Assembly (NCBI GenBank): GCA_016185125.1
Contig: JACPOC010000026.1
Span: forward strand, 62,001 to 126,000
Direction of reading: 5' to 3'
Length of the DNA stretch: 64,000 bases
Origin: Bacteroidota bacterium
GTDB taxonomy: Bacteria; Bacteroidota; Bacteroidia; B-17B0; Aurantibacillaceae
Shown here: piece by piece, positions 10,884-29,274 of the stretch
Layout: each line of letters opens with the position of its first letter
Position numbering within the stretch: position 1 is the stretch's first letter
Notes under the pieces: generated by a model
Database searches by the model: none
Seen by the model: the letters and a program-made list of their open reading frames with translations, nothing else
Told to the model about the DNA's origin: nothing
Made by a program: the position numbers and the translations under genes

Positions 10884-10988
10884 CTGTATTATAAAATTTG
10901 GCATACCTTTTGCAATCCTATTTTTTGTAGCATATCTTCCCCATTTCACCTATTTATTAACAAACAGATAAAACCACTATTTTCCCCT

Positions 10989-11041: not shown

Positions 11042-14000
11042 ATGGCTTCAAACACCAAAAAAATAAAAGCGGGCACTACTTCCGCACGCATCGAAACTCT
11101 TGCCGTGCCAAACAGCAATAAAAAAGTACAAAACAAAAAATCTATTGTCGCTTCCAATAAACAATCGATCCCTGCAAAAAAAAATATGGAAACTTCAATA
11201 AAAACCAACGGCCATTCTAAAAAATTAAATGGCTCCCATAAAAATGGTGTTCATAAAAACGGTATCCATAAAAACGGGAATCAACTATCAAAAGATCAGC
11301 AGGGGAAAAAAGTAACCGTTAATGTAGATCACGCGGTAATAATGCCTGAAATGGCCAGCACTTCCCTCGATACAAATGAACTTCTTACAATTTTGTTAGA
11401 AGTAAGAAGCGGGAATTTTGATGTAAAGATGCCACTCAATAAAATTGGCCTCAGCGGTAAAGTTTGCGATACCTTAAACGATATTATTCTTATTAATAAA
11501 AAACTGGTTAAAGAATTTTCTAAAGCCCGCCAAACGGTTGGTAAAGAAGGGAAATTAAATCAGCGAATTACTTTGGCAGATGCTCAGGGCGAATGGAGAA
11601 ACGGTGTGGACGATCTAAATTCCTTGATCTCCGATCTGGTTTATCCTATCCGTGAAATTGACCGTGTAATCTCCGCGGTGGCAAAGGGAAATCTTTCACA
11701 ACAAATTCCTGTAGAAATCGAAGCAAGCAATCATCAATTGCAGGGTGAATTTGCACGTATTGCCAAAGAGGTAAACGACATGGTGAAGCAGCTCAACCTC
11801 TTTACAATGGAGGTAACACGTGTTGCCCGCGAAGTAGGTTCTGAAGGTAAATTAGGAGGCCAGGCCAAAGTAAAAGGTGTAGGCGGGGTGTGGAAAGATT
11901 TGACTGATTCTGTAAACCAAATGGCAACCAACCTTACCGCTCAGGTACGTAACATTGCCGATGTAACAACAGCGGTAGCAAAAGGCGATTTATCTAAAAA
12001 AATTACGGTTGACGTAAAAGGAGAAATATTCGAATTAAAAAATACAATCAACACCATGGTGGATCAGCTGAACTCGTTTTCATCTGAGGTTACCCGTGTG
12101 GCCCTTGAAGTAGGTACAGAAGGTAAATTAGGTGGACAAGCTCAGGTAAAAGGAGTTGCAGGTACATGGAAAGATTTAACTGACTCTGTAAACCAAATGG
12201 CATCTAACTTAACCGGGCAGGTACGTAACATTGCCGAGGTAACAACGGCAGTAGCAAACGGTGACTTATCACGTAAAATTACGGTTGACGTAAAAGGAGA
12301 AATATTAGAGTTAAAGAAAACCATCAACACCATGGTGGATCAGTTAAATTCATTCTCTTCTGAGGTAACACGTGTTGCCCGCGAAGTAGGTTCAGAAGGA
12401 AAATTAGGCGGACAAGCACAGGTAAAAGGTGTTGCCGGTGTTTGGAAAGATTTGACCGATTCGGTAAATCAAATGGGTTCCAACTTAACATCACAAGTAC
12501 GTAACATCGCCGAAGTAACAACCGCGGTTGCAAAAGGAGATTTATCACGTAAAATTACGGTGGATGTTAAGGGTGAAATATTAGAATTAAAGAAAACAAT
12601 TAATACCATGGTGGATCAGCTGAACTCTTTTGGTTCAGAGGTTACACGTGTTGCACGCGAAGTAGGTTCAGAAGGAAAATTAGGTGGGCAAGCTAACGTG
12701 GAGGGGGTTGACGGAATCTGGAAAGATCTTACCGATTCAGTAAACCAAATGGGTTCAAACCTAACAGCTCAGGTGCGTAATATTGCCGAAGTAACAACCG
12801 CGGTTGCAAAAGGAGATTTATCCCGCAAAATTACTGTTGACGTAAAAGGTGAAATATTAGAATTAAAGAAAACAATTAATACCATGGTGGATCAGCTGAA
12901 CTCTTTTGGTTCAGAGGTAACACGTGTTGCACGCGAAGTAGGTTCAGAAGGAAAATTAGGAGGGCAAGCAACAGTTGAAGGAGTGGACGGTATCTGGAAA
13001 GACCTTACCGATTCGGTGAATCAAATGGGGTCTAACTTAACAGGTCAGGTACGTAACATTGCCGAGGTAACAACGGCAGTTGCTAACGGTGACCTTTCCC
13101 GTAAAATTACAGTGGATGTTAAGGGTGAGATCTTAGAGTTAAAGAACACGATCAATACGATGGTGGATCAATTAAACTCATTCGCCTCAGAGGTAACCCG
13201 TGTGGCGCTTGAAGTAGGTACAGAAGGAAAACTTGGCGGCCAGGCTACGGTAGAAGGCGTAGGCGGTACATGGAAAAACTTAACCGATTCGGTGAACCAA
13301 ATGGCCGGTAACTTAACGGGTCAGGTGCGTAACATTGCCGAAGTAACCAACGCGGTTGCAAAAGGTGATTTATCACGCAAAATTACGGTTGACGTAAAAG
13401 GAGAAATATTAGAATTAAAAAATACAATTAACACCATGGTGGATCAGCTGAACTCTTTTGGTTCAGAGGTAACACGTGTTGCTCGCGAAGTAGGTTCAGA
13501 AGGAAAACTGGGCGGACAAGCAACTGTAGAAGGTGTGGATGGCGTTTGGAAAGATCTTACCGATTCGGTAAATCAAATGGGTTCAAACTTAACAGCACAG
13601 GTACGTAACATTGCCGAAGTAACAACTGCGGTTGCAAAAGGAGATTTATCCCGTAAAATTACTGTGGATGTTAAAGGTGAAATCTTAGAATTAAAGAATA
13701 CGATCAACACAATGGTGGATCAGCTGAACTCTTTCGGTTCAGAGGTTACACGGGTTGCACGCGAAGTAGGTTCAGAAGGAAAACTTGGTGGGCAAGCCGA
13801 TGTGCCGGGTGTTGGAGGAACATGGAAAGATTTAACCGATTCGGTAAACAAAATGGCATCCAATTTAACATCACAGGTGCGTAACATTGCAGAGGTAACA
13901 ACCGCGGTTGCAAACGGTGATTTATCACGTAAAATTGCGGTGGATGTTAAAGGAGAAATATTAGAATTAAAAAATACAATTAATACCATGGTGGATCAGC

Positions 14001-17000
14001 TTCGCGGATTTGCTTCCGAGGTAACTCGTGTTGCACGTGAAGTAGGTACAGAAGGGAAATTAGGTGGCCAAGCACACGTGCCGGGCGTTGCAGGTACATG
14101 GAAAGATTTAACGGATTCGGTAAATCAAATGGCCGGTAACTTAACAGCACAGGTGCGTAATATTGCCGATGTTGCTATAGCGGTTGCGAATGGTGACTTA
14201 TCTAAAAAAATTACGGTTGACGTACGCGGAGAGATCTTGCAATTAAAGGAAACTTTAAATACAATGGTGGATCAGCTTCGCGGATTTGCCTCTGAAGTAA
14301 CCCGTGTTGCACGTGAAGTAGGTACCGATGGTAAATTAGGCGGGCAAGCTTTCGTGCCGGGTGTTGCAGGTACATGGAAAGATTTAACTGACTCTGTAAA
14401 TCAGATGACGGGTAACTTAACATCGCAGGTACGTAACATTGCGGAGGTAACAAAAGCGGTAGCGAGTGGTGACTTATCAAAAACAATTACAGTTGACGTA
14501 AAAGGAGAAATATTCGATTTAAAAAATACCATCAATAAAATGGTGGATCAACTCCGCGCCTTCGCTTCAGAGGTAACTCGTGTTGCTCGCGAGGTTGGAA
14601 CCGATGGTAAATTAGGTGGGCAAGCTTATGTGGCCGGTGTTGCAGGAACATGGAAAGATTTGACTGACTCTGTAAACATCATGGCTACCAACTTAACATC
14701 GCAAGTGCGTGGTATTGCCAAAGTTGTAACATCAGTAGCAACAGGTAACTTACGCCAGAAATTATCCATCAACGCGAAAGGCGAGGTTGCTCAATTAACA
14801 GATACGATCAATGAGATGATTGAAACTCTCGCAGTATTTGCCGATCAGGTTACTAACGTGGCACGTGAAGTAGGAGTTGAAGGAAAATTAGGTGGCCAGG
14901 CAAACGTACCGGGAGCTTCAGGAATCTGGAAAAACTTAACAGAAAACGTAAATCAATTAGCAGAGAATTTAACTACGCAGGTACGTTCAATTTCTGAGGT
15001 GGCAAGTGCGGTAACAAAAGGTGACTTAACACGAAACATTCGTGTAGATGCAAAAGGCGAGGTGGAAGAATTAAAAGATACCATTAACCAAATGATCACC
15101 AACCTGCGCGAAACTACCTTACTAAACCAAGAGCAGGATTGGCTGAAATCAAACTTAGCCAAGTTTACGCAAATGTTACAGGGTCAAAAAGATCTTCAAA
15201 CAGTTGCCAAGCGTATTCTTTCTGAATTAGCTCAGGTTGTTACGGCACACTATGGAGCATTTTATATTTTATCTACAGAAACAGATACAGCCAAATTAAA
15301 ATTATTTGCTGCTTACGCATATAAATCAGAAAAACATATTCCTAAAGAGTTTGCTATTGGCGAAGGCTTAGTAGGACAATGTGCCCTTGAAAAAGAGCGA
15401 ATTATTTTATCAAACGTACCTAATGATTATGTAAAAATCAGTTCAGGACTTGGAAAAGCAAAGCCTAGTAACCTGATTGTGTTACCGGTATTATTTGAGA
15501 ACAATGTGAAAGCCGTTATTGAGTTAGGTTCGTTGGATACATTTAGTTTAACACACTTAGATTTCTTAAACCAGTTAACAGAATCAATTGGTATTGTTGT
15601 AAATACTATTGAAACCAATTCAAGAACTGAAGAATTATTAACTCAATCGCAATCACTTGCAGGAGAATTAAAAATTCAGCAGGAAGAATTACGCAGAACC
15701 AACGATGAACTTCAGGATAAAGCCCTGCTTCTTGTTAAACAAAAGAACGAAGTGGAAGCCAAAAACAAAGAGGTGGAGGAAGCAAGAAAATCACTGGAAG
15801 AAAAAGCAGAACAGTTGACTTTAACTTCCAAGTACAAGTCTGAATTCCTTGCCAACATGTCGCACGAATTACGTACACCATTAAACTCATTATTAATTCT
15901 TGCACAACAGTTATATGAAAATGCTGAAGGAAACTTAAATGAGAAGCAAACACGTTATGCTAAAACCATTCACTCTTGCGGCGATGACTTATTACAGCTG
16001 ATCAATGATATTCTTGACTTATCGAAAATTGAATCAGGATTTATTTCGGCTAATATTTCAAGCATTCGCTTTACTGAAATATCAGCGTTTGTTGAAACTA
16101 CATTTAAACCAATTTCAGAAGCTAAAAACCTTAAATTTAAAATTGAGGTTGATCCTGAATTAACCGAATCAATAGATACTGACTCTCAGCGCTTAAATCA
16201 AATCTTAAAAAATCTTCTTTCCAACTCATTTAAATTTACCGAGAAGGGAGAAGTTAAACTTAAAATATTTGACGCCAAGAAAAAGTTCAAGCCGGGCACG
16301 CCAATGCTTGATAAAGCCGAGCGCGTGGTTGGATTCTCCATTGTAGATTCAGGAATAGGAATTCCTACTGATAAACAAAATATTATTTTCGAAGCCTTTC
16401 AGCAGGCGGAAGGTTCTACAAGTCGTAAGTACGGCGGAACAGGATTAGGATTATCCATCAGTAGAGGTTTAGCTGAACTATTAGGCGGAACCATTGAACT
16501 GGATAGTGAAGTTGGAAAAGGAAGCACCTTTACACTTTATCTTCCCTTAGATAACGCGGGTGCTGTAACCGCTACTCCAGCACCTTTCCAGAACTTACGT
16601 ACCGAGAAAAAAGATCTGGATGCTATTCTTAATACCCTTAACATGACCGATGAGGGAATTGAGATTAAAAAATTGGAAGGTGTTAATGAAATGATTAACG
16701 AAACCGGTGATGATCGTGCAAACATTACGCCTAACGATAAAGTTATTTTAGTAATTGAAGATGATCTTCGCTTTGGTAAAATAATGATTGACCGCGCGCA
16801 TGAAGATGGATTAAAAGTAGTGATAGCCACCAATTACGTGGAGATCTTTAATTTTGTAGCGCGCTTTAGTCCAATTGCCATAACTCTTGATGTGAAGCTT
16901 CCGGATACCAGCGGATGGAAAGTATTGGATCTTTTAAAGAATGATTTAAACTACCGCCATGTGCCTATTCATCTTATTTCAGGTGAAGAAAACAGATTGC

Positions 17001-17905
17001 TGGCTTTAAAGCGCGGAGCACGCACCTTCTTACAAAAACCTTTAACTAAAGATTTATTGGATGATCTTTTCAAAGACATTATTGAGTTTAATAATAAAGA
17101 AAAAAGGCAATTGCTTATTGTAGAAGATAACGAAATTGAATCTTCGCAGGTTGTAAAATTAATGAAAGAAGAAAACATTGAAATTACAACTGCTTCTACA
17201 GCTGCAAAAGCACTTGAATTAATAAACGAAAAGCAGTTTGACACCATTATTCTTGATTACACTTTGCCTGATTCTTCAGCCATTGAATTGATTAATAAAA
17301 TGAATAAAGATAAAACTGTACTTGCGCCTATAATTATTTATTCAGCAAAAGATTTTTCAAAAGATGAATTAGCCCAGTTGAATAAAATTGCCAGCAGTAT
17401 TGTGCTTAAAGATGTTCATTCGCTTGATCGTTTACTGGAAGAAACCATGATGTTCCTTCACGTAGATTACTCCAAGTTCACTCCTGAAAAACGGAGAATG
17501 ATGGAAAACATCCGCATGAAAGGAGATATTCTTTCGCACAAAAAAGTGTTGGTTGTGGATGATGATGTGCGTAACCTGTTTGCCATTACCACAGTTTTTG
17601 AACGATATAATATTGATTGCATTACTGCCGAATCGGGTAAAGAGGCCATTAATCTGTTAAACGAATCGGATGATATTGAAATGGTGCTCATGGATATTAT
17701 GATGCCCGAAATGGACGGTTATGAAACCATGCAAAAGATAAGAAGAGAGCATAAAAATAATTCTCTTCCTATAATAGCGGTAACTGCCAAAGCCATGAAG
17801 GGCGATCGGCAGAAATGTATTGAAGCGGGAGCCTCGGATTACATTACCAAACCTTTAAAAATGGATCAATTATTATCCATGATGAGAATCTGGTTTTATA
17901 AATAA
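11042..17905 (+). CDS. Giant cytoplasmic poly-HAMP hybrid histidine kinase with three receivers
   Basis: 2,287 residues without any transmembrane segment. Order: basic Asn/Lys-rich N-terminus (1-100, with [14 protein letters not shown]); divergent HAMP units (~105-265); twelve 92-residue repeats (~265-1369), each a divergent plus a canonical HAMP; GAF (~1385-1530); coiled coil; HisKA with phospho-His1608 in SHELRTP; HATPase_c (~1710-1830; N box, DSGIGIP, GTGLGLS); three receivers with Asp1950, Asp2072 and Asp2218. Layout resembles the fungal group III kinases (Nik1/Os-1), which sense osmotic stress through HAMP arrays, but is much longer. Receiver 2 has an atypical end (VLKD where the Lys-Pro usually is). 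A REC-kinase gene starts 5 bp after the stop. Confidence 0.93.
11846..15157 (+). repeat. Twelve in-frame 276-bp tandem repeats coding HAMP pairs
   Basis: Successive GKLGGQA-coding positions are 276 bp apart (11846, 12122, ...), giving 12 units of 92 residues. Units 2-8 are the most alike, units 11 and 12 the most divergent. Some neighbours share long identical DNA stretches, a sign of recent unit duplication or gene conversion. Such repeats can recombine and are prone to assembly collapse, so the copy number should be treated with care. Confidence 0.9.
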
Positions 17906-19705: not shown

Positions 19706-20065
19706 GCAAAAGCAGGCAGGTTAAAACATAAAATTTTATATGGGGAATATGCGGAAGTTATTGCACTAAGCACTTCTTTTAAGCAAAATTTAATTAAATT
19801 ATGTAAAAAACGAGTAAAATAAACCCTATAATGGGATAATATTTTCTCATCTTAAATTTGATAAAAAATTAAATAAAAAAGCGATAATAAACGCTTTTTT
19901 TGAAAAATATGTTAAATGTGAATTTATCAAAAAGTCTTAATTTTCAAGCCTTTCCAACCAAAAAAATGTGAATTTTGAAAATAGACGTAAAATATTCCCC
20001 AAACAATTGTATATTTAAAATAAATATTCCATATAAATTTGGGGAAAATCATTCCCAAAAAAGTG
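19706..20065 (+). promoter_or_regulatory. Long leader with TTCCCC-type inverted half sites upstream of the NtrC-like gene
   Basis: No gene in this stretch. It holds an exact 9-bp inverted repeat, TTCCCCAAA at 19995-20003 and TTTGGGGAA at 20038-20046, a further half site ATTCCCAAA at 20051, and a 10-bp inverted match TGGGGAATAT (19741-19750) / ATATTCCCCA (19992-20001). The arrangement just upstream of a -24/-12-like element fits enhancer sites for an NtrC-family activator, possibly autoregulation (inference). Confidence 0.45.
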
Positions 20066-20081
20066 TGGTTATTAATTTGCA
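20066..20081 (+). promoter_or_regulatory. Sigma-54-like promoter (TGGTTATTAATTTGCA)
   Basis: GG and GC are separated by exactly 10 bases and the -12 half TTGCA is perfect. The GG is 37 bp before the NtrC-like ATG. This is the best -24/-12 match in the window. Confidence 0.6.
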
Positions 20082-20103
20082 ATGGGAAATTTAATCAAAT
20101 ACT

Positions 20104-21555
20104 ATGGATAAATTATTAATTATAGAAGACGACATGGACATGGGCCTGTTGTTGAAGCGCTTTTTAACTAAAAACGGTTACGAAGTTGAAACGGTTGCTA
20201 ACGGAAAAAACGGAATCAGTACTTTTGCCGCAAAACCCGCCGATCTTGTATTATGCGATTACCGTTTAGGCGATATGGAAGGCGTTGAAGTTCTTAAAAA
20301 AATTAAGGACATTGAACCCACCGTACCTTTTATTATTATGACCGGTTATTCTGATATCAGAACTGCCGTTAATGTAATGAAGTTGGGCGCATTTGATTAT
20401 TTAACCAAGCCACTTCTTCCGGACGAAACTCTGCAAATCATTAAACGCGCACTCTCCAGCGGTAATCAATTGGCGCATATTGTTGTTGATAAAGCCGATA
20501 AGGATGTTGACAGTGATTTAGAAGTTATCTCAAAACCAAGAACAACCATTCGCGGAAAAAACGATTACGTATTTGGTAAATCGGCCGCATCAAAAGAATT
20601 ATTACGTCAGATTGATCTGGTGGCTCCAACAAATTACAGCGTTATTATTTATGGAGAAAGCGGCGCGGGTAAAGAAGCCATTGCTCAAACCATTCATAAA
20701 AAAAGTAAGCGCGCCCGTATGCCATTTATTGCAATGGATTGCGGTGCCATGAGCAAAGAACTGGCCGGTAGCGAATTATTCGGACATGAAAAAGGATCCT
20801 TTACCGGAGCTATAGGAACTAAAATCGGTCATTTTGAATTAGCCAATGGCGGAACCATTTTTTTAGATGAAATAGCTAATCTTCCTTACGATGTGCAATC
20901 ATCTTTGTTGCGCGTAATTCAGGAACGTAAAATAAAACGCGTTGGTGGAAATAAAGAAATTCCTATTGATGTAAGAATTATTGTGGCCAGTAACGAAAAT
21001 CTTAACGAAGCCTATAAAAGAGGTAAATTCCGCGAAGATCTTTACCACCGCTTTAACGAGTTTCATCTAACGGTTTCGCCTTTGCGCGAGCGTAAAGAAG
21101 ATATTTTAATGTACGCCAACTTCTTCCTTAAAATGGCTAACGACGAATTAAATAAAGACGTAGAAGAATATAGCAATGAAGTTCAGGATCTTTTTGTAAG
21201 ATACCCATGGTATGGCAACTTACGAGAAATGAAAAACGTGGTAAGAAGAACAGTTTTATTAACCGATGGAAAAACGGTGGAAGCAAAATCTCTTCCTTTC
21301 GAAATATCTAATTTTGCGCGCACCGCCATGGCTATCAGTTATGATAAGCACGATGCTCCAAACGAACATCCTGATCTTCCATCGGAAGAAGTAAAAGAAG
21401 AAAAACCAGATCTTAAATCGGTTGCCTTAGGCGCGGAATACGATCTTATCATAAAAGTACTTAAAGAGGTAAACTATAATAAAAGTAAAGCCGCTAAAAT
21501 ACTCAACATCGATAGAAAAACATTATACAATAAAATGAAGGCCTACAACATGTAG
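20104..21555 (+). CDS. NtrC-family sigma-54-dependent response regulator
   Basis: 483 residues. Receiver (1-120) with Asp52 in VLCDYRLGD; AAA+ domain (~158-395) with Walker A GESGAGKE at 184-191, the sigma-54 contact loop as GSFTGA at 231-236 (usual GAFTGA, A to S), Walker B TIFLDEI and the arginine-finger region REDLYHRF; Fis-type HTH at the end (NKSKAAKILNIDRKTLYNKM). Such proteins hydrolyse ATP to open sigma-54 promoters. The NtrB-like kinase gene starts 5 bp downstream and is its likely partner. Its existence implies RpoN in the genome, not encoded in this window. Confidence 0.93.
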   Translation: MDKLLIIEDDMDMGLLLKRFLTKNGYEVETVANGKNGISTFAAKPADLVLCDYRLGDMEGVEVLKKIKDIEPTVPFIIMTGYSDIRTAVNVMKLGAFDYLTKPLLPDETLQIIKRALSSGNQLAHIVVDKADKDVDSDLEVISKPRTTIRGKNDYVFGKSAASKELLRQIDLVAPTNYSVIIYGESGAGKEAIAQTIHKKSKRARMPFIAMDCGAMSKELAGSELFGHEKGSFTGAIGTKIGHFELANGGTIFLDEIANLPYDVQSSLLRVIQERKIKRVGGNKEIPIDVRIIVASNENLNEAYKRGKFREDLYHRFNEFHLTVSPLRERKEDILMYANFFLKMANDELNKDVEEYSNEVQDLFVRYPWYGNLREMKNVVRRTVLLTDGKTVEAKSLPFEISNFARTAMAISYDKHDAPNEHPDLPSEEVKEEKPDLKSVALGAEYDLIIKVLKEVNYNKSKAAKILNIDRKTLYNKMKAYNM

Positions 21556-21560
21556 CATTT

Positions 21561-22997
21561 ATGGAAAAAGAAATTATCAAGGTATTATTGGTTGAAGATG
21601 ATGAGGATGACCATGTTTTATTTAAATACAGCTTAAACGAAATTAAGGTTAATAATTATGATTTAACCTGGGCAAATACCTTTGATGCCGCTCTTGATTT
21701 GATTAAAAAGAAAGAGCACGATATATACTTTTTTGATTACCTTTTAGGAGGGCGAACCGGCCTTGATCTTATACAAGAAACGGTAGCTCTGGGAATTACC
21801 ACGCCTATAATTATTTTAACCGGTTTAGGCAATCAACAAACCGATTTAAAAGCCATGGAACTCGGCGCTTCTGATTACCTGATTAAAGGAGAAATTGACG
21901 CGCAGAAACTGGAACGCAGCATTCGCTATTGCATTGAGCAGAGCCGCATGCTTAAAAAATTAAAAGCCAGCGAAACAAAATTCCGAAGTATTTTCGAAAA
22001 TTCGCACGATGTAATTTATCTTCCTACTAAAGAAGGAAAGATCCTAGACATCAATCAGGCGGCAGAACAATTGTTTGGTTACACGCGTAAAGAAATGCTG
22101 AGCATGAATGCCTACGATCTTTACGAAAGCAAGGAAGAACGCGAAAAATTTTCTAAGGAAATAAACATTAACGGAGGCTGCGCCAACTTTGAGGTTACTT
22201 TGGTTGACAAAAACAAAAATAAAAAATACTGTTCCTTAACTTCAAACATTCAACGCACTGCTGAAAACGGAGAAGTGTATCAGGGAATTATTCATGATAT
22301 GACGCTCCGCAAAAAAGCGGAACAGGATTTAATGGTTGCCGAAAAACTTGCCTTTGTTGGTAAAATTGCCCGCACCCTTGCACACGAAGTGCGTAATCCG
22401 CTTACCAATATTAATCTTTCGGTTGAACAATTGGAAGATATGCTTAATGAAGAGCAATACATTGTTTATTTCGATATTATTAAACGTAACAGCAAACGCA
22501 TTAACGATTTAGTAACCGAATTACTCGAAAACTCTAAGCCCATGGAGCTTCGCAAAGCCCCTACTCCAATCGAAAACATTATTTCAGGAACAGTAGATCT
22601 GGCAAGAGATAGAGCTGATCTTAAAAACATTAAAATAATAACCAACTTTAATTTTAAAGATAAAACCATTTTTGCCGATGAATCGAAATTATCAATTGCA
22701 TTTTTAAATATTCTTATCAACGCTATTGAAGCTGTAAATAAAAACACCGGCGTTATAAAAATAGAGGGCGTTTGCAAAGATGATAAATGCCTTATAGAAA
22801 TTGAAGATAACGGTTCGGGCATACCGCGCGAACACGTTAAAAAAATATTTGATCCTTACTTCACCAGTAAACCCAACGGAATGGGACTTGGCCTTGCCGC
22901 CACGCAAAACATTATTCATACCCATAAAGGAACCATTGAAATTGAAAGCGAAGAAAACAAAGGCACTAAGTTTAAAATAGAATTAGATCTGGCTTAA
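21561..22997 (+). CDS. Receiver-PAS-histidine kinase (NtrB-like), partner of the NtrC regulator
   Basis: 478 residues, soluble. Receiver (1-125; phospho-Asp in YFFDYLLGG), PAS (~135-255; SIFENSHDVIYL, INQAAEQLFGY), then a NtrB-type kinase: His in ARTLAHEVRNPLTNI (~275) and HATPase_c with LINAIEA, DNGSGIP and GMGLGLA. The HEVRNPL form is typical of kinases paired with sigma-54 activators. It starts 5 bp after the NtrC-like stop and is certainly in that operon. The N-terminal receiver means that the kinase is itself downstream of another phosphodonor. Confidence 0.9.
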   Translation: MEKEIIKVLLVEDDEDDHVLFKYSLNEIKVNNYDLTWANTFDAALDLIKKKEHDIYFFDYLLGGRTGLDLIQETVALGITTPIIILTGLGNQQTDLKAMELGASDYLIKGEIDAQKLERSIRYCIEQSRMLKKLKASETKFRSIFENSHDVIYLPTKEGKILDINQAAEQLFGYTRKEMLSMNAYDLYESKEEREKFSKEININGGCANFEVTLVDKNKNKKYCSLTSNIQRTAENGEVYQGIIHDMTLRKKAEQDLMVAEKLAFVGKIARTLAHEVRNPLTNINLSVEQLEDMLNEEQYIVYFDIIKRNSKRINDLVTELLENSKPMELRKAPTPIENIISGTVDLARDRADLKNIKIITNFNFKDKTIFADESKLSIAFLNILINAIEAVNKNTGVIKIEGVCKDDKCLIEIEDNGSGIPREHVKKIFDPYFTSKPNGMGLGLAATQNIIHTHKGTIEIESEENKGTKFKIELDLA

Positions 22998-24318: not shown

Positions 24319-24482
24319 TGGGAATATAATTACTCGAAGTGTGGTAAATTTCCCCTTAACATCGACTAACTTTACGATTAAAGGGCAAAAAACCTCGTTA
24401 ATAATAGCATTTTAAGGCCTAAACATGTAAAAAACAGTTAAAACAGGCTTTTATTTTAAAAGATTATAACAAAATGAGTTTG

Positions 24483-24498
24483 TGGCATGATTTTCACT
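24483..24498 (+). promoter_or_regulatory. -24/-12-like element (TGGCATGATTTTCACT)
   Basis: GG 49 bp before the ATG at 24533. The first 12 bases are the same as in the element at 19705. TGGGAATAT (24319) and TTTCCCCTTA (24349) further upstream resemble the half sites before the NtrC-like gene. Confidence 0.5.
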
Positions 24499-24532: not shown

Positions 24533-24910
24533 ATGAAAACAGTTTTAGTAATAGAAGACGAAGATTTTATCTCCAGCCTTATAGCCAGAGCATTAAAAAA
24601 AGAAGGATACAGTGTTATTGTAACAAGCGATTTTGCATCTTCCATAAAAGTGATTGACGGCTCCGCGGTTGACATTGTGGTATCGGATGTCATGTTGCCT
24701 TTTACCGGCGGAATGGAAATTGTTGAACACATAAAAAGCAGCGATCGCTTAAAACATATCCCAATAATTCTTGTTACAGGAATGGATAAAGATATTCTTT
24801 ACAGCAGCAAGGTAAAGGCCGAAGCCATTCTTTCAAAGCCATTTGATATGGGCCAACTGGTGGCATTGGTTAATACCAATTTAGCCAAGCAGATGGAGCA
24901 GCAAGGGTAA
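24533..24910 (+). CDS. Single-domain response regulator
   Basis: 125 residues, a bare receiver: VIEDEDF acidic pocket, phospho-Asp in IVVSDVMLPF, Thr in LVTG, and Lys in ILSKPFD. No output domain, so it must act by protein contact or as a phosphate shuttle (as CheY and Spo0F do). Monocistronic between a promoter-like element and a clear terminator; not next to its kinase. Confidence 0.9.
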   Translation: MKTVLVIEDEDFISSLIARALKKEGYSVIVTSDFASSIKVIDGSAVDIVVSDVMLPFTGGMEIVEHIKSSDRLKHIPIILVTGMDKDILYSSKVKAEAILSKPFDMGQLVALVNTNLAKQMEQQG

Positions 24911-25638: not shown

Positions 25639-27168
25639 TTAATTATCGGCGGGTAAATAAATATCAAAAGTAACACCTTGCATTAATTGGCTGGTTGCAA
25701 TTATAATACCATTGTGATTTTCAATAATTTTTTTTACAATGGCCAAGCCAATACCGGTTCCTTCATAAGCTTCTTTGTTGTGCAAACGTTGAAATACTTC
25801 AAAAATACGATCGCTGTGCCTGGGCTCAAAGCCAATACCGTTATCTTTTATTTGTATGTGGCAATAATTTTTATCTGGAGATAATTTTTCATGTTCTATT
25901 AATTCAACACCCTCTGTTTGTTCTTTTAAAGGAAGAATTATTTGTTTACCTATTAAAATTTTACTTGTAATTATAATATGCGGAGCAACATCGGTTCGCG
26001 CAAACTTAATGGCGTTACTTATTAAATTAAACATTAACTGCCGGAACTGAAAAGGAATAAGATTGGTTGAGCAAAGTTCAGTGGCTTCAATGGTAACATT
26101 TCGGGCATCCAGGCTTTCCTGTAATTCTGCAATCACTTCTGTTACAATTTCACTTAAATTTGTGTATATAAAAACACGCTCGGTAGAATTAACACGCGAA
26201 AAAGCAAGCAAGTCTTCAATAAGGCGTTGCATACGTAAAGCGGTTAAATTCATACGCTCAAACTTATGTTTACCTTCAGGAGATAAATTCTTAAATTCGG
26301 TATCCAAAATCATGGTTGCAAAAACTTGAATTTTACGAAGGGGCTCCTGCAAATCGTGACTAGAGATATAGGTAAAAGCTCTGAGTTCTTTATTGGCAAT
26401 AATTAATTCACTCGCTCTTTTTTCTTTTTCTTCCATTTGAAAAGCTAGCTCTTTATTGGCAGTAATTAATTCAGCCGCGCGATCTTCCTTTTCCACATTT
26501 TGAAAAGCGAGTTCTACATTGGCAATTTTTAATTCGCCGGCGCGCTCTTCTTTTTCTTTATTTTGAAAAGCAAGCTCTTTATTAACCTGCTGAAGATTTT
26601 TTTCGTGCCTGTTTAATTGATTTATTTTTTCTTCTAATTGCTGCTGATAAGTAAGTATGGTTTCTTCGCTTTTCTTTTTGTCCGACAAATCATTTATAAT
26701 AATGCCATATCCTTGCAAATTAGGCTGTAGGCTTGTAAGTGAAATGTAAACAGGAATTTCTCTTTTACCAATTTTTAAAACAAGTTCTCCTTTATAAACA
26801 CCCTCTTTAATATTCTTTAACATGGTGTTAAAAATGTCTTTACTGGGTAAATATGAATATAAATAGGAGCCTACAATTTTACTTAGGGGCGTTTCGGTTA
26901 ATTCGGAAAAATAAGAGTTGCAATATAAAATAAGACCTTCTTCAGAAATACTTAAGGCACCTTCCGCGAATTTTTCAATTAACACACGGTAAGTATAATC
27001 TATGCTTTCAAGTGAATAAACATCAACTTTGCCGTCTTTATTTAATAAAAGCGCATCCACTTCGCCGTGTCTGATGGCATAAATAAGGCTTTGCGCTTCG
27101 AGCAGTTTGCGTTCTAACTCAATAACGTATTGCGATTTTTGGTCAATATCCGGCGTTTTATCTGTCAA
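25639..27168 (-). CDS. PAS histidine kinase of the kaiC-kaiB operon, with 21-residue coiled-coil repeats
   Basis: 509 residues, soluble. An N-terminal IRHGEVDALL segment and PAS domain (~60-165) are followed by three tandem 21-residue repeats, NKELAFQNKEKEERAGELKIA-like, at 196-216, 217-237 and 238-258, each exactly three heptads of a signalling coiled coil. HisKA has His271 in SSHDLQEPLRK; HATPase_c (~365-505) shows NLISNAIKF, DNGIGFE and GTGIGLAIVKK. It starts at a TTG that overlaps the stop of the second kaiB (TTGA), so translation is coupled. Likely output kinase of the Kai proteins; no response regulator is in the same operon. Confidence 0.9.
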   Translation of the reverse strand: MTDKTPDIDQKSQYVIELERKLLEAQSLIYAIRHGEVDALLLNKDGKVDVYSLESIDYTYRVLIEKFAEGALSISEEGLILYCNSYFSELTETPLSKIVGSYLYSYLPSKDIFNTMLKNIKEGVYKGELVLKIGKREIPVYISLTSLQPNLQGYGIIINDLSDKKKSEETILTYQQQLEEKINQLNRHEKNLQQVNKELAFQNKEKEERAGELKIANVELAFQNVEKEDRAAELITANKELAFQMEEKEKRASELIIANKELRAFTYISSHDLQEPLRKIQVFATMILDTEFKNLSPEGKHKFERMNLTALRMQRLIEDLLAFSRVNSTERVFIYTNLSEIVTEVIAELQESLDARNVTIEATELCSTNLIPFQFRQLMFNLISNAIKFARTDVAPHIIITSKILIGKQIILPLKEQTEGVELIEHEKLSPDKNYCHIQIKDNGIGFEPRHSDRIFEVFQRLHNKEAYEGTGIGLAIVKKIIENHNGIIIATSQLMQGVTFDIYLPADN

Positions 27169-27449
27169 TCGTTAATGTTCTTAAGGTCTAAGATATTCAA
27201 AATTTTTTCAAGTGATACATCACCCGTTATTTTTTTTTTATCTCCCGGTGAAACTCTTAATAAGGTTGGGGTAGCAATAATATCGTGCGTAATGGCCAGT
27301 TGGGCAGAAACCCCTATATCTATAATTTTAATGTCGCACTTTCCGGCCAAGTGATTATCGCAAATAGAATGCAGCATTTCAATAGCCTGCGTAGATCTTT
27401 CAGACATTCCTGAAATAAATAAAAATAATAAAAATTTGCTATCCTCCAT
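27165..27449 (-). CDS. kaiB: Divergent KaiB-like protein
   Basis: 94 residues, thioredoxin-like KaiB fold: [19 protein letters not shown] replaces the LYVAGxTPxSxxA start and [13 protein letters not shown] keeps the cis-Pro loop. The end [14 protein letters not shown] follows KaiB. It is less conserved than the neighbouring KaiB and overlaps it by 11 bp, and it is coupled to the kinase through TTGA. In cyanobacteria a KaiB-like domain is fused to the kinase SasA; here the divergent KaiB might be the separate counterpart of that domain (inference). Confidence 0.85.
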
Positions 27450-27768
27450 TTTCCAATTTTTTAGTGCTCTTAGGTTTAGGAAATGATTTTATATCCAAGC
27501 CTATTAAAACTTTTTCTTCGTTTGAAAGATCTCCGATTATTTGCCTTATTGGTTCAGGTACTTTTCGCACTAAGGTGGGTATCGCTAATATCTGATCATC
27601 TTCGGCGAGCTGTGGATTTTTCAATAAATCAATGACCTCAATGGAATATTTTCCCGAAAGATGCTGCTCACAATAATTTTTGAGGTTATCAATAGCTTTT
27701 ATAGATTTTGGCGTGTGCCCCGCAACGTAAAGGCGCAATTGCCACTCTTCTTCAGAATTTTTAACCAT
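27439..27768 (-). CDS. kaiB: Circadian clock-type protein KaiB
   Basis: 109 residues, full Kai[49 protein letters not shown] and [17 protein letters not shown] are all close to the cyanobacterial sequence. KaiB binds the CI ring of KaiC and, in cyanobacteria, closes the phosphorylation cycle. A C-terminal extension of ~20 residues ([15 protein letters not shown]) overlaps the next gene. It lies 27 bp downstream of kaiC. Confidence 0.93.
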
Positions 27769-27795
27769 GTGTTTTTTTATTCGTTATAAATTCTG

Positions 27796-29274
27796 TTAAT
27801 CTATTTTGTTGGGTTCTACTGATCTTTCGGAACCTATTAATATACCATCAGGTCCTTTTTCAATATCCAGTATTTTAATTCCTGAGGAAGTAATGATAAA
27901 TTCCCTTACTTTATTGGAGTGCGCTAAACCACGCGCTTTAATAATAAATAAACCTCTGTTGCGTTCGCCCGCTCTTTCCACATCACGCACGGCAAGCCAG
28001 GTATCTACTAATGAAGAAATGGAGTCTTCAGCGAAATCGGAATTAGCATAAGGATTAAGTGAAGTAAATAAAGCGGTGATGTTATTGAGTTTTAAAAGAT
28101 CAATTAAACGAACAAGCATTGAATTAACTTCATTTGGATTGCCAATAGAAATTAAATTACTTATTGGATCAATGATAACTGTTTTAGGTTTAAAATCACG
28201 AATTAATTTACTTAAGGTTAGTAAGTGAAGCTCTAAGCCATTAAGGGTGGGGCGATAGGAATGAATTTGAAGTAGTCCTTTTTTAATATGTGGCTCCAGA
28301 TCTATTCCAATGGAGCGCATGTTGCGGATGAGTTGCTGGGGTGATTCTTCGAAAGCGAAATAAATAGCTTTTTCGCCATTTTTACATTGTTCGTGTGCAA
28401 AGTAAGAAGCAATGGTTGTTTTAGAAGTTCCTGCAGAGCCTGAAATAAGAATGTTACTTCCTCTGTAAAGTCCGCCGCTTAAAAACATATCATTTAAGCC
28501 GGGAACACCTGTTGAAATGATTTCAGAAGAAACCAAATTATCTAACTTTAAAGAGGTAATAGGTAAAACGGAAAGACCTTCTTCGTCAATTAAAAAAGGA
28601 TATTCGTTAGTGCCATGAGTGGAACCTCTGTATTTTACAATGCGTAATCTTCTGGTAGATACCTGATCAATAACACGGTTATCTAATATAATCACACAAT
28701 CAGAAACATATTCTTCAAGCCCTTGGCGGGTTAAAGAATCCATTCCTTTTTCGGCGGTAATAACAGCGGTTACTCCTTTTGATTTTATCCAGTTAAATAA
28801 ACGTCGTAATTCTGAACGGAGTACTGCTTCATTTGAAAAGCAGGAAAAAAGTGTTTCAATGGTATCTAAAACAATTCTTTTAGCTTGTATTTTATCAATG
28901 GCATGGCCTAATCTTATAAAAAGCCCGTCAAGATCGTATTCGCCGGTTTGCTCTAATTGCGAGCGTTCTACGCGCACATGTTCAATCACCAACTTGCGTT
29001 CTTCTTTTAGTTTTTCAATATCAAAGCCTAAAGAACTTACGTTGGTTCTTAAATCATCAGAGCTTTCTTCAAAGGACATAAAGACGCCATTTTCGTTGTA
29101 CTTGGTAATGCCATTCATTAAAAACTGCATTGCAAGAAGGGTTTTGCCACAACCGGCAGAGCCGCAAACCAAGGTAGGGCGTCCTTTTGGAATTCCTCCT
29201 TGGGTAAGATCATCTAAACCGGTTATTCCGGTTGGTGTTTTAAGAAGTATGTATTTATCGTCTTTTAACTGCAT
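27796..29274 (-). CDS. kaiC: KaiC: double-domain RecA-like ATPase/kinase
   Basis: 492 residues with both CI and CII. CI: Walker A GSAGCGKT (38-45) and catalytic EE (69-70). CII: Walker A variant GSAGTSKT (279-286) and EE (309-310). The loop EDSISSLVDT places Ser420 and Ser421 where cyanobacterial KaiC has its phosphorylated Ser431/Thr432; the Thr426 position is Ala. It is slightly shorter than the 519-residue cyanobacterial protein at the C-terminal KaiA-binding tail, and no kaiA is visible. First gene of kaiC-kaiB-kaiB-kinase. Outside cyanobacteria such operons have been tied to stress or timing functions. Confidence 0.93.
   Translation of the reverse strand: MQLKDDKYILLKTPTGITGLDDLTQGGIPKGRPTLVCGSAGCGKTLLAMQFLMNGITKYNENGVFMSFEESSDDLRTNVSSLGFDIEKLKEERKLVIEHVRVERSQLEQTGEYDLDGLFIRLGHAIDKIQAKRIVLDTIETLFSCFSNEAVLRSELRRLFNWIKSKGVTAVITAEKGMDSLTRQGLEEYVSDCVIILDNRVIDQVSTRRLRIVKYRGSTHGTNEYPFLIDEEGLSVLPITSLKLDNLVSSEIISTGVPGLNDMFLSGGLYRGSNILISGSAGTSKTTIASYFAHEQCKNGEKAIYFAFEESPQQLIRNMRSIGIDLEPHIKKGLLQIHSYRPTLNGLELHLLTLSKLIRDFKPKTVIIDPISNLISIGNPNEVNSMLVRLIDLLKLNNITALFTSLNPYANSDFAEDSISSLVDTWLAVRDVERAGERNRGLFIIKARGLAHSNKVREFIITSSGIKILDIEKGPDGILIGSERSVEPNKID

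Follow-up and report, generated by a model that had tools for sequence, protein, structure and literature searches.

A conserved palindromic site and promoter-like element suggest that an NtrC-type activator in Bacteroidota controls its own gene together with a second sigma-54 factor

How is the gene of an NtrC-type activator controlled in Bacteroidota, and does the activator act on itself? The question is raised by a leader (19706-20103) in a window of 64,000 nucleotides (G000:C18:62001-126000 of a 3.34-Mb draft genome), for which a sequence-only reading had proposed an NtrC-like gene that controls its own expression via TTCCCC-type half sites and a sigma-54-like promoter. To our knowledge, few activator sites have been described in Bacteroidota. 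The identity of the gene is borne out by Pfam, which finds a receiver, an AAA+ sigma-54 activation domain, and a Fis-type helix-turn-helix (HTH). The gene and its neighbor are:

20104-21555, plus strand: NtrC-type activator gene (Pfam PF00072, PF00158, and PF02954, all above cut-off)
21561-22997, plus strand: REC-PAS-histidine kinase gene, directly 3' of the activator gene (Pfam)

An alignment of 85 activator sequences has the Walker A motif GESGAGKE, the Walker B motif IFLDEI, and the loop GSFTGA, whose second position holds S in 70 and A in 15 of the 85. The phosphoacceptor Asp52 (D52) is kept in 85/85, and the stretch DRKTLYNKMK of the recognition helix is identical in all of them. Judged from its sequence, this set of domains and motifs is that of an NtrC-type bacterial enhancer-binding protein. 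Orthologs of the activator are encoded in three congeneric genomes (G051, G003, and G021; 94-96% identity) and in seven further bins (L119-L124 and L131; 78-80% identity), which together with the window provide 11 orthologous leaders (clade a). A homolog of the REC-PAS-histidine kinase directly follows the activator in 10/10 other clade-a genomes.

The repeats named in the sequence-only reading are all present, both the nine-base pieces (TTCCCCAAA at 19995-20003, TTTGGGGAA at 20038-20046, and ATTCCCAAA at 20051-20059) and the 10-bp pair (TGGGGAATAT at 19741-19750 and ATATTCCCCA at 19992-20001). The clustering of half sites also holds, with five occurrences of TTCCC/GGGAA in 19706-20103, a number reached in none of 2000 dinucleotide shuffles (mean 0.89). 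TTCCCC is not enriched over the whole window (21 vs 27.5 expected). The exact repeats are weak evidence: inverted nine-mers with at least four G/C formed one or more pairs in 236 and two or more in 66 of 2000 shuffles (observed, three), and a ten-mer inverted pair occurred in 81 of 2000 (observed, one). The exact 9-bp and 10-bp pairs are not supported as a signal; the conserved pairing is instead that of a proximal palindrome. When the comparison of orthologous leaders suggested by the sequence-only reading was run, this palindrome was kept in 11/11, whereas the outer TTCCCC copies (19742 and 19995) were not in place in other leaders; none of the other 10 has a TTCCCC at -150 to -90. The elements of the leader are as follows:

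19741-19750, plus strand: distal TGGGGAATAT, not a palindromic site (matrix score, leader comparison)
19833-19848, plus strand: GGGATAATATTTTCTC, a weak candidate for a distal site, located 208 bp upstream of the proximal palindrome (score 11.3)
19992-20003, plus strand: TTCCCC copy named in the sequence-only reading, not conserved (leader comparison)
20025-20030, plus strand: TATTCC, an additional half site located 8-11 bp upstream of the palindrome (comparison of leaders)
20041-20056, plus strand: 16-bp palindromic enhancer-like site GGGGAAAATCATTCCC, consensus GGGGAA-N4-TTCCCC (conserved, out-of-sample test)
20066-20081, plus strand: sigma-54-type -24/-12 element TGGTTATTAATTTGCA, TGG-N8-TTG (leader conservation)

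The 11 leaders share one proximal element and are unalignable further out. When they are anchored at TGG, their ungapped column identity is 0.26-0.32 from -300 to -61, rises to 0.39-0.56 from -60 to -1, and reaches 0.87 over the 15 bases counted from TGG. The palindrome starts 25-26 bp before TGG in 11/11 leaders, and TATTCC is found at most 25 bp before the palindrome in 10/11 (the exception is G051). That the repeats are meaningless and arose in an AT-rich leader by drift or chance would agree with exact repeats that are in themselves only mildly unusual and with two outer copies that are not kept in place, but it is contradicted by the footprint in 11 leaders, the fixed spacing, and the rank of the site in an out-of-sample test (see below), which makes this explanation extremely improbable.

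Distal elements are more variable. The GGGGAATATGCGGAAG of the outermost copy scores -8.5 as a site, and the TTCCCC of this copy (19741-19750) lies 42 bp before the TGGCAT of a divergent gene. The weak candidate site has counterparts in G051 (score 12.1, 207 bp before the proximal site) and G003 (8.3, 211 bp). In four of the seven bins (L119, L121, L123, and L124), distal sites scoring 13.5-16.4 are located 290-305 bp before the proximal one, and no distal site with a score of at least 8 occurs within 400 bp in G021, L120, L122, and L131. These distal sites may serve the activator gene or a divergent gene.

The promoter-like element takes the form TGGTT-N4-ATTTG (20066-20079), with TGGTT and ATTTG each present in 11/11 leaders. 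In the window, GG-N10-GC at 20067-20080 agrees with the sigma-54 rule, by which ten bases separate the GG at -24 from the GC at -12. The leaders of the relatives keep GG-N10-G; the C after TTTG is found only in 8/11 orthologous leaders and the corresponding C in 9/34 rpoN-activator leaders. The CA that follows GG in the TGGCAC of sigma-54 promoters is absent and replaced by TT in 11/11 leaders. Usual sigma-54 enhancers are palindromic sites at a distance of about 80-200 bp before the promoter. The distance between palindrome and promoter is 25-26 bp in the lineage of the window, 89-91 bp in a second clade of activators (clade b), and 119-155 bp in 26/27 scored rpoN-activator leaders. The palindrome is thus much closer to the promoter in this lineage than usual enhancers are, which counts against a sigma-54 promoter with its own enhancer as the best reading of the leader.

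The chief rival to that reading is a promoter of the primary sigma factor (sigma-A), used in the lineage of the window, with a TAnnTTTG -7 box and with the palindrome as an operator for self-repression or for activation by polymerase contact. It owes this rank to the unusually close palindrome and to the fit of TAnnTTTG to 9/11 leaders, that is, to all except those of the window and G021; TTTG itself is present in 11/11. The TAnnTTTG -7 consensus is documented for Flavobacterium in excerpts of PMC9723704, and the spacing of palindrome and promoter is rigid, with a palindrome that would overlap the -33 region. Nevertheless, the window has TTAATTTG and G021 has AATATTTG at the respective position, a TTG is missing at the -33 place of the window, and the TGGTT shared by all 11 leaders is unexplained by sigma-A. 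Moreover, most of the printed TGG-N8-TTG promoters of rpoN-activator pairs in other families are without TAnnTTTG. A sigma-A promoter is considered unlikely.

The element at 20066 had also been taken for the best -24/-12 match in the window. In a ranking with sigma-54 consensus weights, the 30 best matches listed do not include it, and the first is another one:

10899-10914, plus strand: best -24/-12 match of the window, TGGCATACCTTTTGCA (sigma-54 consensus weights)

This match precedes the gene of a poly-HAMP hybrid kinase, and TGGCAY is also present in the corresponding leaders of G051 and G021. The gene (11042-17905) encodes a hybrid histidine kinase of 2287 amino acids with 12-13 HAMP domains, a GAF domain, and three receivers, for which the fetched islands of 7/8 relatives have a counterpart with 80-94% identity in the matched part; its leader in G051 has a near-perfect palindrome. 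Elsewhere in the window (25639-29274, minus strand), genes for a KaiC-like protein, KaiB, and a PAS histidine kinase are arranged in a row; there was no match of KaiC or KaiB in the stretches fetched from eight relatives.

Further evidence for the palindrome comes from clade b, whose activators (54-56% identity) are encoded in nine congeneric genomes. A row of same-strand genes in G007 begins with YtxH, holin-like, two other genes, and receiver and ends with the activator. The motif GGGGAA-N5-T(A/T)CTC is located before the YtxH gene in 4/4 clade-b islands (G007, G018, G041, and G006), followed by TGGCAY at a distance of 91, 91, 89, and 91 bp. A matrix trained solely on the 11 clade-a sites ranked the site before the presumed operon of the activator first in all four of these islands (50-57 kb), which were outside the training set; with a symmetrized matrix, the site was first in three islands and second in G007. 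GGCAY at 70-100 bp accompanies 13/24 clade-b sites, a count that spans four related islands, and on average 0.3 sites (maximum 3) with 60 permuted matrices. In clade a, it accompanies 4/70 sites (permuted mean 0.55, maximum 2), a count that takes overlapping stretches of G057 twice.

A linkage to a sigma factor is seen in other families. In 55 of 80 named loci, which include records of G003 (L118) and G021 (L125), rpoN is the gene immediately before the activator and has the same orientation; it is elsewhere in the locus in 5 and absent from 20 (nine of which belong to clade a). Pfam identified the upstream gene as sigma-54 in 3/3 loci tested, which led to the rejection of a kinase as upstream neighbor of the activator in these families; on the other side of the activator, the same three loci encode a histidine kinase that matches CHASE3 (just under the cut-off in L141). 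TGG-N8-TTG occurs in 34/55 leaders of these pairs, or 25/37 clusters at 65% identity, whereas eight other spacings gave 2-8 and the reversed pattern 1-9 matches; the 21 leaders without it are mostly from Dyadobacter. In 28/34 cases, the element is 39-57 bp upstream of the start assigned to rpoN; in the other six (L137, L144, L145, L147, L156, and L166), the starts or the elements may be wrong. The base after TTG is A in 14, T in 10, C in 9, and G in 1 of the 34 elements.

The palindrome recurs in the same leaders. Its score is at least 10 in 27/34 and at least 12 in 22/34 leaders with TGG-N8-TTG, and it starts 119-155 bp before TGG in 26 of the 27. Permuted matrices matched on average 0.9 of these leaders, with a maximum of 13 in 295 permutations that leave out those with more than three fixed columns; in another control, which included near-original permutations, the maximum was 20. 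A scan of 72 loci, one of which (L131) was also a training locus, yielded 56 sites with a score of at least 14, as compared with a permuted mean of 7.3 and a maximum of 26.

Also the genome of the window encodes two rpoN genes, the second of which (C18:43212-44666) is located outside the window, ~37 kb before the activator. The product, RpoN2, is 35% identical to RpoN1 and has orthologs (66-89% alike) in 10/10 other footprint genomes (in two pieces in G060). It groups with the rpoN genes linked to activators with a tree support of 0.987, or 1.000 in a smaller tree, in groups named by hand after the smaller tree was seen. By copy number and placement in a separate clade, the second rpoN is distinct from the housekeeping rpoN. 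Among 40 congeneric genomes, 13 have the activator, 13 a second RpoN above the cut-off (a count that includes a fragment in G022), and 12 have both; G011 has two RpoN and a fragment of the activator. In G010, whose assembly is 94% complete, the activator (56% identity) is accompanied by a single RpoN match.

Nine of the congeneric genomes have a second RpoN that is of another kind as far as it was compared. In the four genomes compared (G007, G018, G041, and G006), this other second RpoN is 82-96% alike among themselves and 32-36% alike to clade-a RpoN2. In clade a, rpoN2 sits behind YtxH and holin-like genes, and the leaders of this row have a weak site (score 8-13) 79-100 bp before GGCAC in 5/9 cases. 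The best site in the row leader of G057 is another one, at 56 bp; those of G061, G062, and G059 have no GGCAY in the expected place, and that of G059 has no site. The YtxH/holin-like row ends in rpoN2 in clade a (G000:C18:43212-45805) and in the activator in clade b (G007; L042:9692-12949), so that rpoN2 and the activator seem to have swapped places between the clades.

A candidate target of the activator within the window is a receiver gene, upstream of which the sequence-only reading had noted similar pieces:

24320-24335, plus strand: GGGAATATAATTACTC, a second enhancer-like site, upstream of the receiver gene (matrix score, spacing)
24483-24498, plus strand: -24-like element TGGCATGATTTTCACT before the receiver gene (TGGCAY then TTTTC kept in the window, G003, and G021)
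24533-24910, plus strand: single-domain receiver gene, candidate target (Pfam PF00072)

These pieces are real and partly conserved in G003 and G021, where the receiver is 96% and 87% identical. The site scores 14.7 in the window, 8.8 in G003, and 15.3 in G021, values attained by 2/400, 48/400 (a weak copy), and 8/400 permuted matrices, respectively. Its start precedes TGGCAY by 163, 163, and 164 bp, and the TTCCCC at 24350-24355 does so by 133, 134, and 133 bp. The occurrence of the palindrome away from the activator gene, as in this leader, would also suit another transcription factor that binds it, such as a controller of the whole rpoN2-activator module. This explanation is compatible with the other readings, and the odds of the rivals overlap. 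The site, however, accompanies the activator gene in both clades and in several families whose neighboring genes differ, and the recognition helix is invariant among the aligned activators; binding by another factor is judged quite improbable.

The suggestion that the activator controls further members of a motif set may hold for the receiver gene, which the palindrome precedes, and is not supported for a wide set. Near-perfect palindromes (GGGGAA-N4-TTCCCC with at most one mismatch) number 68 vs 50 for the reversed control in nine rpoN2a genomes, 23 vs 48 in five genomes with the other second RpoN, and 17 vs 25 in six RpoN1-only genomes; in view of no clear genome-wide enrichment, a wide regulon was rejected. 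An exact hexamer (GGGGAA or TTCCCC) was kept in all leaders in 0/19 cases, but this criterion is strict enough to exclude even the leader of the activator itself. Likewise rejected was TATTCC-N8..11-GGGGAA as a regulon mark, with 0-5 matches per genome vs 0-3 in controls (18 genomes); the activator leader is among the matches in 7/11 clade-a genomes, and the rest resembles chance.

Counts of patterns vs their backwards versions in genomes of three types also led to the rejection of TTGGCAYRNNNTTTH as an RpoN2-specific promoter. On both strands, the counts are 171 vs 138 in 11 rpoN2a genomes and 359 vs 159 in 12 RpoN1-only genomes, and they are 174 vs 108 in six genomes with the other second RpoN, whose type was compared by sequence in four of the six. 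Because the excess is present also without RpoN2, the motif is not tied to this sigma factor. The canonical TTGGCAYRNNNNTTGC is rare (0-12 per genome, both strands, 29 genomes). Many island genes have [TC]GGCAY at -36 to -62 but no palindrome, and would need another activator unless they are not targets. TGGCAY at -37 to -63 without palindrome, and mostly without GC at -12, precedes genes at 2802 and 9952 of the window and at G000:C18:42616 and C18:52420; this promoter-like class is frequent also in genomes with one RpoN. The island contains Mla, Omp85, OmpA, YtxH, and DUF2383 genes, a content that suggests envelope stress.

Taken together, a conserved enhancer and promoter probably allow the activator and the sigma factor paired with it to control their own genes in many members of the phylum, and the leader in the window is likely the control region of an autoregulated module of sigma-54 paralog and activator with an enhancer of its own. 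The comparisons (11/11 leaders, clade b, and rpoN pairs) support the core of the sequence-only reading, in which the activator controls itself from a sigma-54-like promoter with half sites of the TTCCCC type; they do not support its exact repeats and outer copies. In the proposed mechanism, the phosphorylated NtrC-type protein would bind the palindrome GGGGAA-N4-TTCCCC and switch on RNA polymerase carrying RpoN2 at the -24/-12-type element TGG-N8-TTG. The genes rpoN2 and activator lie next to each other in many Bacteroidota, probably as one operon that shares a single enhancer and promoter of this kind. In the lineage of the window, where the two genes are separated, the activator gene retains site and promoter, together with weaker distal sites, and the presumed operon of YtxH, holin, a further gene, and rpoN2 has a weaker copy of the site before its own GGCAC element (5/9 leaders). 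The sequence-based parts of this model are conservation, spacing, gene linkage, and the separate clade of rpoN2; binding of the site by the protein, reading of the promoter by RpoN2, phosphorylation, the operons, and activation rather than repression in the lineage of the window are its predicted parts.

The predicted circuit resembles that of enteric NtrC (glnG), which has a phosphorylatable receiver, a palindromic site of ~16-17 bp, and autoregulation. The activator shares with it the domain order, the phosphorylatable receiver, and the length of the palindrome, and would also share the autoregulation. Unlike the NtrC site (TGCACC-N4/5-GGTGCA), the site described here has a different sequence, and the gene neighborhood of the activator gives no sign of a role in nitrogen metabolism.

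Closer to the lineage in question, the sigma-54 regulon of Flavobacterium psychrophilum (motif SM4), as described in excerpts of PMC9723704, likewise has -24/-12 promoters in a member of Bacteroidota and is involved in envelope stress and protein quality control. Unlike in F. psychrophilum, for which the same excerpts give one sigma-54, the promoters here relax the C at -12; activator sites of the regulon are not described in these excerpts of PMC9723704. In Cereibacter (Rhodobacter) sphaeroides, RpoN paralogs each have their own activator (RpoN1-NifA, RpoN2-FleQ, and RpoN3-AprX), and the choice of promoters by RpoN1 vs RpoN2 depends on position -11, according to excerpts of PMC11999139; also AprX consists of a receiver, an AAA+ domain with GAFTGA/GSFTGA, and an HTH (PMC11999139, excerpts). 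The present case differs from C. sphaeroides in the phylum and in that rpoN2 and activator are often neighbors behind a shared palindromic site, with autoregulation predicted. Two rpoN genes, compared for a divided labor of RpoN1 and RpoN2, are found also in Xanthomonas and Ralstonia; the excerpts on these pairs make no mention of an activator-linked rpoN2 with a shared enhancer.

Neither the activator-linked rpoN2 module nor its site was found in the excerpts of the open-licence PMC matches listed. As far as these sources go, paired RpoN paralogs and activators are known from C. sphaeroides, and an activator-linked rpoN2 with this enhancer would be new. Tentatively, RpoN2 may represent a separate branch of sigma-54 in Bacteroidota, with its own activator, enhancer, and promoter code (no fixed C at -12), forming a self-controlled envelope-stress circuit that is insulated from RpoN1. 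The analysis provides a candidate binding site, promoter, and partner sigma factor for a family of activators found in many Bacteroidota. If it is true that RpoN2 reads promoters without the C at -12, promoter sequence and activator would keep two sigma-54 factors apart in nature, as is described for C. sphaeroides.
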